This document shows positions 15,324 to 51,851 of a DNA stretch of 64,000 bases, piece after piece. Made by a program: the position numbers and the translations under genes. Positions within the stretch are counted from its first letter, which is position 1; every line of letters starts with the position of its first letter. Source of the DNA: Bacillus sp. (in: firmicutes) (GTDB lineage: Bacteria; Bacillota; Bacilli; Bacillales; Bacillaceae_J); the NCBI GenBank assembly GCA_012842745.1, contig DUSF01000017.1:1-64000 (forward strand), written 5' to 3'. A model generated the notes under the pieces. That model saw only the letters and a program-made list of their open reading frames with translations. It searched no databases and had not been told where the DNA came from.

Positions 15324-15794
15324 ATGATTGAAATCCTTCATAGACTTGATAGGAATTTGAAATTGTTATATTCATTTCAAGGGGAAAATCGCCTAACCCT
15401 TATTTTAGAACTTGAAACAAAATCGGCGGCTTGTCCTTATTGCGGTCATTTTTCTTCACGCCCCCATAGTTCCTACACTCGGTCCGTTCATGATTTACCA
15501 ATTCATGATCAAGAAATTTCTTTAATTATTCACTTGCATAAATGGTTCTGTGATCAAGAAAGTTGTCCTACTAAAGTCTTTACAGAACGGCTAAACTGGT
15601 TAAGCCCTTATCGCCGAAAGACCATTAGATTAGAAGAAACCTTGCGTACCCTAGCTTTCTCAATGAGTTGTCTTCAAGCTGAAAAAGTATGTCACCGTCT
15701 GCATATGCCAGCTAGTCATGATGCATTGCTAAATTTAATTAAAAGTACGGACATTCAATCTGAGCATGAAGATTCTCCCTTTTGTAGCTATTGA
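15324..15794 (+). CDS. ISL3 transposase, N-terminal part
   Basis: The first 156 codons encode the ISL3 zinc-binding and DNA-binding region: CPYCG near residue 38, CDQESC near 72, and the helix-turn-helix ending at HMPASHDALLNLI. Translation stops 29 bases after the downstream frame opens. The domain normally continues directly into the DDE domain of the next frame, so a single-base frameshift or a programmed shift separates them. The ATG follows GGGAGG. Confidence 0.85.
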   Translation: MIEILHRLDRNLKLLYSFQGENRLTLILELETKSAACPYCGHFSSRPHSSYTRSVHDLPIHDQEISLIIHLHKWFCDQESCPTKVFTERLNWLSPYRRKTIRLEETLRTLAFSMSCLQAEKVCHRLHMPASHDALLNLIKSTDIQSEHEDSPFCSY

Positions 15795-16896
15795 TGATTT
15801 TGCTTTTCGTAAGGGGAGCTACTATGGTACATTATTTTGTGATTTAAAAACGGGACAACCTATTGATTTACTTGAAACAAGAAAACAGGAAGAAGTAACG
15901 CAATGGATTAAAAACCATTCGACTATTATGTTTATGACAAGAGATGGTTCCACTATCTACCGAAAGGCCATTGATTCTGTTGAACGACCAATTGTGCAAG
16001 TCATGGATCGTTTCCATTTGCTTCAGAATCTTCATCGGTATATGGTAAACGCATTACAACGAATGCTCCCTCAACGTTGGGAAAAGATTGAACAAAAAAA
16101 TGAAGAAGCAGCTACAGAAAGAGATAATAAACAAGAATTCCCCCAACTAAATCCAAAACAAGAAAGGAAGTGGCAATTAATTCAGAACATCCAACTAGAT
16201 CATCAAGCTGGAATGTCTTTTCGTGGACTTTCAAAGAAATACAAAATAGATCGCAGAACAATCTCCAAGTATATAAAAATGGAGAGTTTCCCCATTCAGA
16301 AAAGAAGACCACATCCTTCAATGTTAAATCCTTATTTAGAAACTATTTACCAAATGGTAAGAAACCATTCAACCTCACGTCAAATCTATGAATATATAAA
16401 AAAGCAAGGATTTAAAGGTGGCTTTGATTCAGTCCGTCGACGGGTAACATCAATCCGTAAGGAAATGCTGAAGACAGATCAAGTTCCACCAATTGTAAAA
16501 TCTTGTCATCGGAAAGCTATTATGCATCTTTATTGGAAATTGCATCAACAATTATCCGATGAAGAACGTCAAAATCTTAATTATGCTCTAACCGCATTTC
16601 CTAACACTAAAGAACTATATGGATTTGTTCAATATTTTCGTGAAAATATAAACCAAAACGACTCCCAGTGCATTAAAAAACTTATTTCATCTATCAATAA
16701 CCACATCACTCCAGAAATTAAAAGTTTTATAAACTATTTATACAAGGAACTTGATTCAATAGTACTATCGATTCATTACACATACAGTAACGGAGCAATA
16801 GAAGGGCAGATCAATAGATTAAAGACCATTAAAAGGTTGCTCTACGGACGTGCAGGTTTTCGACTTCTTAGAAAACGAGTGTTATATAGATGGTAA
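15766..16896 (+). CDS. ISL3 transposase, DDE catalytic part
   Basis: Encodes the catalytic domain: FVAIDDFAFRKG (first Asp), VQVMDRFHLLQN (second Asp, D-x-F-H), a helix-turn-helix insertion GLSKKYKIDRRTISKYI, and YSNGAIEGQINRLKTIKR with the catalytic Glu. The C-terminus (YGRAGFRLLRKRVL) is complete. It opens with ATG in the -1 frame relative to the upstream part, without a clear ribosome site. Whether one protein is made by frameshifting or the transposase is dead cannot be told from sequence. Confidence 0.85.
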   Translation: MKILPFVAIDDFAFRKGSYYGTLFCDLKTGQPIDLLETRKQEEVTQWIKNHSTIMFMTRDGSTIYRKAIDSVERPIVQVMDRFHLLQNLHRYMVNALQRMLPQRWEKIEQKNEEAATERDNKQEFPQLNPKQERKWQLIQNIQLDHQAGMSFRGLSKKYKIDRRTISKYIKMESFPIQKRRPHPSMLNPYLETIYQMVRNHSTSRQIYEYIKKQGFKGGFDSVRRRVTSIRKEMLKTDQVPPIVKSCHRKAIMHLYWKLHQQLSDEERQNLNYALTAFPNTKELYGFVQYFRENINQNDSQCIKKLISSINNHITPEIKSFINYLYKELDSIVLSIHYTYSNGAIEGQINRLKTIKRLLYGRAGFRLLRKRVLYRW

Positions 16897-18887: not shown

Positions 18888-18938
18888 TTATTGTCCAAGT
18901 TTGACCTATTATTGGCCGGAATCCATGTTTTATTGTCT
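18888..18938 (-). repeat. 21-bp-period array of TTATTGTCC (3 units)
   Basis: TTATTGTCC (18888), TTATTGGCC (18909) and TTATTGTCT (18930) recur exactly 21 bp apart between pdaA's 3' end and yfjO. The intervening 12 bases are not conserved. The same word occurs in the opposite orientation in an array at 50160-50251. Confidence 0.8.
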
Positions 18939-49336: not shown

Positions 49337-50020
49337 TTATTCTTCAAGCATAAGTTGTTCCAATTTTAATGGTTCTATATATTCACCATTTTTGTAAGCA
49401 CGCATATTTCCACCTGAAATTTCATCAATTAAAACAATCTTTTTGTCTTTTAGTCTTCCAAATTCGAATTTAATATCATATAACTCAATATCTTTTTTTG
49501 CTAATTCTGCTTTGACAAGATCCGCAATTTTTCTTGTCAATTCTTTTAATTCTTTATACTCACTTAACGTTAAAATTCCAAGCATATGAAGCGCATCATC
49601 ACTAATCGGTGGGTCTTGACGCTCATCGTCCTTAATCGTAACTTCAACAAATCCATCGAGCGCTTGACCTTCTTCAGCGTACATTCCATAACGACGTAAA
49701 AAGCTACCTACAGCCCTGTAGCGACAAATGACTTCAAGTCCATTACCAAATACAGTCGCTGGTTTGACGGTCATTGTTGCATTTTCAATGTCAGCATCAA
49801 TATAATGGGTTGGAATGCCCGCTTCAGCTAATTTTTCAAAAAAGAATTTCGTTAATCTAAGCCCTGCTTTACCTGCCCCTTCGATTGTTAAACCGACAGT
49901 GTTCGCGCCTGGGTCGAAAACGCCATTTTCTCCTGTTACATCATCCTTGAACTGCAGCAAATAATTTCCGTCCCTAAGAGCATAAACATCCTTTGTCTTA
50001 CCAGTATAAATGAGTTCCAT
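49337..50020 (-). CDS. purC: SAICAR synthase, stand-alone copy
   Basis: Phosphoribosylaminoimidazole-succinocarboxamide synthase (EC 6.3.2.6), purine pathway. The 227-residue protein shows YTGKTKDVY near the N-terminus, GKAGLRLTKFFFEKL, VICRYRAVGSFLRRYGM, DDERQDPPIS and IVLIDEISGGNMRAYK. The ATG at 50020 follows GGAAGG; a 42-codon upstream extension is not family-like. It stands outside any pur cluster, between a drug exporter and a CoA-transferase, so it may be a second copy. No PurR box or purine riboswitch was seen. Confidence 0.88.
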   Translation of the reverse strand: MELIYTGKTKDVYALRDGNYLLQFKDDVTGENGVFDPGANTVGLTIEGAGKAGLRLTKFFFEKLAEAGIPTHYIDADIENATMTVKPATVFGNGLEVICRYRAVGSFLRRYGMYAEEGQALDGFVEVTIKDDERQDPPISDDALHMLGILTLSEYKELKELTRKIADLVKAELAKKDIELYDIKFEFGRLKDKKIVLIDEISGGNMRAYKNGEYIEPLKLEQLMLEE

Positions 50021-50084: not shown

Positions 50085-50102
50085 GGAAGCAGGAGACGGT
50101 TC
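50085..50102 (+). repeat. GGAAGC palindrome, copy 4 (left arm only)
   Basis: GGAAGCAGGAGACGGTTC, the same core as the other three copies with one change, but without a matching right arm. Confidence 0.6.
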
Positions 50103-50159
50103 AATATTACTGAAAAAGTAGCCTTCATAATGCACATATATTTCAAGTATATGGCAATC

Positions 50160-50251
50160 GGACAATAAATGGCCTTGGGCGGACATTAAGTTACCCAAAC
50201 TCGACAATAAATGACTCTTATTGGACAATAAAAGTGATTCTAGGACAATAA
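50160..50251 (+). repeat. 21-bp-period array of GGACAATAA (5 units)
   Basis: Units at 50160 (GGACAATAA), 50181 (GGACATTAA), 50202 (CGACAATAA), 50223 and 50243 (GGACAATAA) are spaced 21, 21, 21 and 20 bp. The 12 bases between units vary. The array lies between the drug exporter's 3' end and purC; a three-unit array of the same word on the other strand is at 18888-18938. Confidence 0.85.
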
Positions 50252-50271
50252 GTTTGAAATGGCTCAATTTT

Positions 50272-51816
50272 TTAAGTGGTCTCGGACGGTTCAACTAATT
50301 TTTGTACAACCTTTTGAACGGTAGAATTGCGTATGCCCGGGTCTTCTGCTGGTGTTGCTCTTTGGATAAAGAATGCGAGAATGAGGGCAACAGCAGAAAT
50401 AAAAGTGGCAATTAAGAAAGCATAGTTAATTCCTTTCAGCATTGCTTCCATTTCAATTTGCTGCCTTATTTGAGCTATAGCTGCCGCTGATGGCTGACTA
50501 GCTGCGCCGGCATCGTACATCGCATCTGCCGCTAATTTCTTCGCAACAGATTCCATTCGATTAGACATAATCGTAATTAATAAGGCTGTGCCAATTGCCC
50601 CTGATACTTGGTTTAATGTATTATTCATCGCTGTCCCGTGCGGGTAAAAACGGGCTGGCAGTTGATTTAAGCCATTTGTTGCGACTGGCATCATCACCAT
50701 TGACATTCCAAATGCACGGACCGTATATAAAGTGATTAAATATGTATTTGTAGTTTCCAACGATAATTTGCTCAATTCATAAGTTGTGATTGTTAAAATA
50801 GCGAGCCCAACCACCGCTAATATACGTCCACCTACCTTATCAAATAAACGGCCTGTAACAGGAGACATAAGGGCGCTAATAAGTGCACCTGGAAGCAGCA
50901 TTAATCCAGCGTCCAATGGGGTAATCCCCTTAAGCGTTTGCATATAAATGGGTAGAAGCAGAATACCGGAAAACATCGCCATATTAACAATCATTGTAAT
51001 CGCCGATGCCAATGCATACATAGGGTATTTAAATACAAAAAAATTAAGCAATGGGCGTTCTTTCTTTACTTGGCTTGTTATAAAACAGACTAGAGAAATT
51101 ACACCAATGATTATCGATAAATAAACTTGCGGGCTATCCCAACCTTTATTTCCTGCAGAACTGAAGCCATACATCAACCCGCCAAAACCAACGCTTGATA
51201 ACAGTATTGATTCGAAATCTAAATGAATATTGACCTTTGCTTTTTTATCCCTAAGCAAGAAAAAGCCAATAATTAATACAGCGGCTGCAATTGGAGTAAC
51301 AAAATGAAAAAGCATTCTCCAGTCATAATGTTCAACAATCCAACCGGATAAAGTCGGCCCGATGGCCGGTGCAGCCATCAAAATTAAACCAAAAACGCCC
51401 ATCGCCGTCCCCCGTTTTTCGACTGGAAAACTAACTAACATCACATTCATTAATAACGGCATCATAATCGCCGAGCCCGATGCTTGAATCATCCGTCCTG
51501 TTAATAGGACTGGAAAAACATGGGCAACCCCAGCAAGGATTGTTCCTGCTGTAAATAATCCCATCGCCACTAAAAATAAATGGCGCACCGAATATTTTTC
51601 AATTAAAAACGCTGTAATTGGAATTAAAATTCCGTTAACTAACATAAAGCCTGTTGTGAGCCATTGTACAGTTGCTGTATTTATTTTTAAATCCTTCATA
51701 ATCGACGGTAAAGCAATATTTAATAACGTATTATTTAAAAAAGCAATAAAAGCACCAATCATTAAAACCGAAAGAATTCCATATGGTGCCTGTTCCTTTT
51801 TAATATCTTGATTCAC
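50272..51816 (-). CDS. DHA2-family MFS drug exporter (14 TM)
   Basis: A 514-residue proton-driven multidrug efflux protein of the EmrB/QacA type. Fourteen predicted helices; motif A-like GRLFDKVGGRILA, motif C IGPTLSGWIVEHYDWR (antiporter signature), and TVQWLTTGFMLVNGI in helix 2. The chosen start is a GTG seven bases after GGAGG; an ATG seven codons upstream overlaps that site. It follows a crotonase gene but is separated by a terminator. Substrates are unknown. Confidence 0.88.
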   Translation of the reverse strand: MNQDIKKEQAPYGILSVLMIGAFIAFLNNTLLNIALPSIMKDLKINTATVQWLTTGFMLVNGILIPITAFLIEKYSVRHLFLVAMGLFTAGTILAGVAHVFPVLLTGRMIQASGSAIMMPLLMNVMLVSFPVEKRGTAMGVFGLILMAAPAIGPTLSGWIVEHYDWRMLFHFVTPIAAAVLIIGFFLLRDKKAKVNIHLDFESILLSSVGFGGLMYGFSSAGNKGWDSPQVYLSIIIGVISLVCFITSQVKKERPLLNFFVFKYPMYALASAITMIVNMAMFSGILLLPIYMQTLKGITPLDAGLMLLPGALISALMSPVTGRLFDKVGGRILAVVGLAILTITTYELSKLSLETTNTYLITLYTVRAFGMSMVMMPVATNGLNQLPARFYPHGTAMNNTLNQVSGAIGTALLITIMSNRMESVAKKLAADAMYDAGAASQPSAAAIAQIRQQIEMEAMLKGINYAFLIATFISAVALILAFFIQRATPAEDPGIRNSTVQKVVQKLVEPSETT

Positions 51817-51851
51817 CGCTGTTCCTCCTTTAGACACACTCTCTGAAGCAC

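Follow-up and report, generated by a model that had tools for sequence, protein, structure and literature searches.

Nine-Base Words Repeated Every 20 or 21 bp at Gene Ends in Bacillales: Candidate Protein-Binding Arrays, Some of Them Carried by a MITE-like Element

The Locus

Within the window, by which we mean the whole 64,000-nucleotide stretch of Bacillus sp. DNA that was analysed (contig DUSF01000017.1), an array of five short words lies inside a small inverted-repeat element between a purC-like gene and an MFS transporter gene, and a second array lies some 31 kb away. The features are as follows:

18888-18938, minus strand: second array, degenerate and stand-alone, with the three words AGACAATAA, GGCCAATAA and GGACAATAA in steps of 21/21
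49337-50020, minus strand: purC-like (SAICAR synthase) gene, downstream; the five-word array is 139 bp upstream of its start
50085-50102, plus strand: left half of a GGAAGCA-GACGGTTC repeat, another dispersed palindromic repeat, overlapping the left duplication
50095-50102, plus strand: probable target-site duplication GACGGTTC, left copy, read by eye
50103-50284, plus strand: short inverted-repeat (MITE-like) element with the array inside; one of about 14 in the genome, which have from 1 to 5 words
50103-50117, plus strand: left end of the element, AATATTACTGAAAAA (GAGACCACTGAAAAA in other copies)
50148-50159, plus strand: leader TATATGGCAATC, abutting word 1 and also found before stand-alone arrays of the same genome
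50160-50251, plus strand: five-word array, steps 21/21/21/20
50160, plus strand: word 1, GGACAATAA, exact
50181, plus strand: word 2, GGACATTAA, one mismatch to GGACAATAA
50202, plus strand: word 3, CGACAATAA, one mismatch to GGACAATAA
50223, plus strand: word 4, GGACAATAA, exact
50243, plus strand: word 5, GGACAATAA, exact
50269-50283, plus strand: right end of the element, TTTTTAAGTGGTCTC
50272-51837, minus strand: MFS transporter gene, whose last codons and stop (VEPSETT-stop) come from the right end of the inserted element
50285-50292, plus strand: probable target-site duplication GACGGTTC, right copy, read by eye

A preliminary description of this DNA had reported five units of one word in steps of 21/21/21/20, and the steps are exactly as it gave them; five words are indeed present, the word being exact in three and carrying one mismatch in each of the other two. 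It had also placed a second array in the opposite orientation about 31 kb off, which we find on the minus strand as three words, one of them exact, with the leader AAAAGGTAATC and 28 bp past the stop codon of the 18967-19911 gene. Lone words are not rare in the window (29 matches with at most one mismatch, against 23.8 expected), and the longest phased chain in 60 first-order Markov windows was a single word in 59 and two words in one, against the five observed, which bears out its judgement that chance was unlikely. An origin from decayed coding sequence, which it had named as a ground for giving up its reading, is rejected, since steps of 20 and 21 bp break every reading frame and the flanking genes are intact. 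Elsewhere in the window, at 15324-16896, two overlapping ORFs together resemble one frameshifted transposase, presumably ISL3-like.

The Inverted-Repeat Element

The element occurs in the own genome in about 14 copies, the window copy counted, which are homologous over about 180 bp, spacers and flanks included, and among which the number of words varies from 1 to 5 by whole units. The inverted ends of intact copies are 15 bp long, GAGACCACTGAAAAA and TTTTTCAGTGGTCTC, and in some of these copies (L001, L019) GAGACCACTGAAAAA stands at both ends, as terminal inverted repeats of a MITE do; in the window copy the right end has one mismatch and the left end is divergent. The element is also small (about 90-180 bp), non-coding and multicopy in the manner of a MITE, and has probable target-site duplications of 8-9 bp, read by eye as GACGGTTC in the window, GATGGTTC in L338 and ACCTGTCCC in L331. 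These short direct repeats flank several copies and vary with the target, and they are not clear in L328, L330 and L332. The copies sit inside another dispersed palindromic repeat (GGAAGCAGGGGACGGTTC and its relatives). No full-length relative with the end sequence of the element was found in plasmids.

The palindromic repeat that serves as insertion target, GGAAGCAGGGGACGGTTC with its GGGACAGG-type relatives, is seen at 50085-50102 and in the flanks of L325-L338, and GGGACAGGTTCC sequences akin to it are present in the Halalkalibacter loci L063 and L089.

The window copy is thus the cargo of a MITE-like element that captured an array and probably carried it to its present place, and the element shows us a transposon-like unit that spreads a putative binding platform.

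Two Classes of Arrays in One Genome

In the own genome (3.50 Mb in 71 contigs) there are 58 exact word pairs, all of them at 20 or 21 bp though distances of 19-23 bp were allowed, and a reversed control pattern gave 0 pairs in the same genome; together with the Markov windows, these counts reject a chance origin. The pairs fall into about 30 arrays of two classes, namely the roughly 14 element copies and about 20 stand-alone arrays. The proposal of a genome-wide intergenic element is therefore upheld, both by these arrays, whose absence would have spoken against it, and by a more generic form of the array in 77 of the 397 genomes of the order.

The stand-alone arrays have in common the leader TATATGGCAATC directly before word 1, and 14 of the 20 have five words, with spacers that are unrelated. 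Word positions in these 20 arrays hold about 1.3-2 bits, absolute values that are inflated because the words were chosen by similarity, and mid-spacer positions hold about 0. Spacer identity is 0.33 within arrays and 0.32 between them.

A Wider Family with a Variable Triplet

A scan for three exact words across 84,980 species genomes returned 47 stretches, mostly from Bacillaceae (Halalkalibacter, Alkalihalobacterium, Calidifontibacillus, Sutcliffiella, Psychrobacillus, Fictibacillus, Alteribacter and others), and outside this family a few isolated tandem repeats. The in-depth searches covered one order and used a generic pattern of three GGNNNATAA words at 20/21 bp, the nine-base frame being SGNNNATAA. 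Carriers belong to 31 of the 135 genera of the order, with about 1,030 matches (the table being summed by hand), whereas the reversed pattern gave 35, spread over 13 genomes. Word distances of up to 30 bp in 79 arrays of 16 genomes were 20 bp (145 cases), 21 bp (122), 19 bp (6) and 17, 22 and 29 bp (one each), statistics that are biased towards 20/21 because the pattern of three words at 20/21 bp was itself what selected the arrays of these 16 extra genomes.

The clearest view of the triplet comes from two orthologous sites in 16 Sutcliffiella genomes, the degU-degV gap and the region downstream of gatB, where in most cases the same terminator and leader precede the array and the word depends on the species: GGACAATAA in G389, G061 and G096, GGTTGATAA in G150, G174 and G016, GGCTTATAA in G398 and G223, GGCAAATAA in G309 and, downstream of gatB, CGCGGATAA in G174, G398 and G016. 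At one such site the triplet switches as a block between species (ACA, TTG, CTT, CAA), and at the second it is CGG. Triplet identity is 0.78 within arrays and 0.35 between them, a difference reached in 0 of 2000 permutations. Array presence is patchy within genera, with a clean loss at both Sutcliffiella sites in G330, and from these two facts we take the function of the arrays to be dispensable.

Fifteen genomes with at least three fetched arrays each were compared for the number of their triplets. One class prevails nearly throughout in G208, G169, G387, G014 and the own genome, and the triplets of different genomes agree only to 0.31. Several classes are found in G396, G377, G338, G074 and G313, with identities of 0.75-0.92 within an array against 0.29-0.53 between arrays (permutation P ≤ 0.001); in the first four of them the triplet is uniform in each array and differs among the arrays of one genome (0 of 1000 permutations). 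In G396, G377 and G338 spacers of one array resemble each other hardly more than spacers of different arrays do, so their uniform words are not accounted for by unit duplication; in G074 and G313 the spacers, too, are more alike within arrays. Mixed arrays occur in related species (G124).

Other tandem arrays were seen in long intergenic gaps of related genomes (L123 9850-10060, the nuoN-ywmB gap of L121 and the spoIID-spoIIQ gap of L122), and they include a 20-bp repeat that is nearly perfect (TATTAAACTTTTAATGAGGG) and another of 59 bp, besides arrays in 20/21-bp steps whose words include CGCAAATAA and GGATTATAA.

Position and Orientation

Arrays are found at gene 3' ends and avoid divergent (promoter-promoter) gaps, as counted in 73 gaps with both neighbours called by a simple codon-usage script: 3 of these 73 are divergent, whereas 21 of 84 control gaps drawn from these loci are (P 3e-4); for convergent gaps the counts are 22 of 73 and 6 of 84 (P 3e-4). 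The preliminary description had proposed testing orientation against replication and gene ends. Polarity proved inconsistent, with 28 arrays of tandem gaps pointing one way ('>>') and 20 the other ('<<'), so that in 20 of 48 the array runs antisense to its gene neighbours. In G005 all arrays are on one strand, and the strict rule that this suggested, of arrays following the direction of replication or transcription, was dropped because orientations are mixed in the own genome and in the 79 arrays.

Several arrays are preceded by an intrinsic terminator, and two are apparently downstream of a 5S rRNA gene, the rRNA being recognised by eye. The same gene neighbours recur across species and genera: the own genome has arrays in common with G003 in what we take to be the nuoN-ywmB and helicase-HD gaps, and with Calidifontibacillus in the presumed spoIID-spoIIQ gap, the gene names being assigned from the sequences.

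Three further observations concern the surroundings of the arrays. At the Sutcliffiella loci L052, L062, L064, L078, L087, L088 and L091, G and T prevail in the flank before the array and C and A in the flank after it, a strand-composition switch that we dropped as a general signature because it is strong only in Sutcliffiella and absent in the own genome. On contig C1 of G313 and contig C1 of G223 the arrays seem to cluster near the presumed replication origin. At L067 3207-3292 a c-di-GMP-I riboswitch (81.9 bits) is found downstream of an array, at a distance of a few hundred bp.

What the Arrays May Be

We consider the chances about even that the arrays are cooperative binding platforms for one or more sequence-specific proteins at the ends of transcription units, the copy in the window having been brought there by the inverted-repeat transposable element. 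About five words of the frame GGNNNATAA at 20/21 bp, that is, two helical turns, would all come to lie on one face of the DNA, where a putative protein would read the word together with its variable triplet and where neighbouring words may help each other, so that binding on that face would be cooperative. With the arrays in gaps where at least one of the flanking genes ends, the role might be that of a boundary at the ends of transcription units, either as a roadblock to read-through or as a topological or nucleoid boundary; we infer binding, cooperativity and boundary role from sequence comparison. Single-triplet genomes would then have one factor, and those with several array classes would have either a set of paralogous factors or variants of a single one. 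The fit to a DNA-binding protein that works on one face comes from the two-turn phasing, the constant frame with its variable triplet, the free spacers and the preserved sites. Against it we count the patchy presence, the losses (G330), the inconsistent polarity, the mixed arrays (G124) and the small number of related orthologous arrays.

A first alternative, which we regard as unlikely, is that the arrays are selfish short repeats that spread by transposition and are tolerated at gene ends without any function for the host, the inverted-repeat element being their vehicle and the stand-alone arrays old copies with eroded ends. The element, present in roughly 14 copies, agrees with it through its inverted ends and probable target duplications, as do the varying number of units between these copies, the patchy presence among close relatives and the location at gene ends away from promoter gaps, which is what tolerated insertions would show. 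The stand-alone arrays, however, have the leader and the words in common and not ends or spacers, they lie at the same site across species, and their triplet switches as a block at one site that has not moved. Moreover, erosion should hit words and spacers equally, whereas in the orthologous Sutcliffiella arrays the words change about 6 times less than the spacers, with differing sites of 6/215 against 30/186 (odds ratio 0.15), and the P of 2e-6 overstates independence because the test covers five pairs from a few related species with sites labelled by word patterns. Among the element copies of the own genome this contrast is weaker (differences from the consensus of 5/360 in words, 14/376 in spacers and 17/583 in flanks). 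A purely selfish reading explains the location of the window copy and does not explain the slower change of the words.

Action at the RNA level is less likely than a DNA-binding protein, and indeed improbable; here a read-through transcript with repeated GGACAAUAA motifs would be bound by an RNA-binding protein, or would form a structure at the transcript end. Many arrays do follow an intrinsic terminator in the sense direction, and the C-rich half of the skewed Sutcliffiella flanks resembles a Rho loading region, but this skew is missing from the own genome, the strict 20/21 phasing has no obvious reason in RNA and the antisense arrays of tandem gaps speak against it. Moreover, folding the window array gave z values of -0.26 and -1.33, no better than those of shuffled sequences; the z of -3.40 at L169 480-620 belongs to a flank with a terminator and gives no evidence on the array. 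In an Rfam search of six loci with E up to 1, no array matched a curated RNA model. Of the three options in the preliminary description, the mobile short repeat suits the window copy and the nucleoid-protein platform is in line with a stand-alone class that behaves like conserved binding sites, while folding does not support the transcript-end RNA structure, though arrays lie at gene 3' ends.

Tandem duplication alone, in which slippage expands the units and the words are remnants of recent copying, would suit the clearly recent expansions with repeated spacers in Alteribacter L073 (15 units), Calidifontibacillus L115, G014 and G199, but it is highly improbable in general, being largely refuted for the stand-alone class by spacers no more alike within most arrays than between them next to near-identical words, and by the same word in unrelated arrays across the genome.

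To return to the binding platforms, a nine-base word set two helix turns apart, with a triplet that varies by species or locus, suggests an undescribed DNA-binding system. More tentatively, paralogous DNA-binding proteins of Bacillales may each read GGNNNATAA through the triplet, each with its own two-turn-phased arrays at the ends of transcription units and with a specificity that switches between species, which would amount to a diversifying addressing code for chromosome sites; to our knowledge, no such code has been described in any system. If the platform reading is right, a sizeable share of Bacillales chromosomes would bear unrecognised conserved binding platforms at transcription-unit ends, whose word switches as a whole from species to species and, in certain genomes, from locus to locus. 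This would point to site-specific DNA-binding proteins of one family, possibly with several members, and provide a natural system for studying switches in their specificity.

Comparison with Known Systems

Searches of the open-access literature returned only primers and unrelated text for the word, and nothing relevant for Bacillaceae intergenic repeats. Two known architectures were rejected. A CRISPR or TIGR guide array would occupy few loci of a genome and have an effector close by, whereas here a 9-nt word with 11-12-nt spacers occurs in about five units at tens of loci, and the flanking genes include no common effector-like neighbour. A CsrA sponge does not suit the architecture either, and the leading GGA is lost from related words, GGTTGATAA among them.

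The iterons of plasmids and phages are direct repeats of the RepA/RepE type, about 19-22 bp apart, which bind their initiator cooperatively. The arrays are like them in having about five direct repeats in helical phase, 20 and 21 bp apart almost exclusively. In contrast, iterons serve one origin beside the initiator gene, whereas the arrays are dispersed over tens of chromosomal sites with diverse neighbours and no common neighbouring gene.

REP sequences and BIMEs are repetitive extragenic palindromes with RAYT transposases, and as far as the abstracts of PMC2817692 and PMC3733652 describe them, they are like the arrays in their many copies per genome outside genes, their lineage-specific classes and their possible use as protein-binding sites. 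REP units are palindromes of 20-40 bp, whereas the arrays are direct repeats on one strand, with unrelated spacers and no hairpin, the window array folding no better than shuffles.

Among MITEs, and next to the insertion sequences that target REP sequences in the abstract of PMC1525189, the window element is alike in its inverted ends, its probable 8-9 bp target duplications, its lack of a gene and its place inside another palindromic repeat; what sets it apart is its cargo, an array of a class that is also found without the element.

The TAACTGA heptamers, according to the abstract of PMC4679880, are direct repeats of Beggiatoaceae, Cyanobacteria and Bacteroidetes that stand just upstream of start codons, in sets that number two to six in the main genome treated there, and are proposed to be the sites of an unknown factor. 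They are like the arrays in being a short same-strand word in sets at many intergenic sites, and the arrays, compared with what that abstract describes, differ by their place at gene 3' ends, their nine-base frame, their 20/21-bp phase and their lineage-variable triplet.
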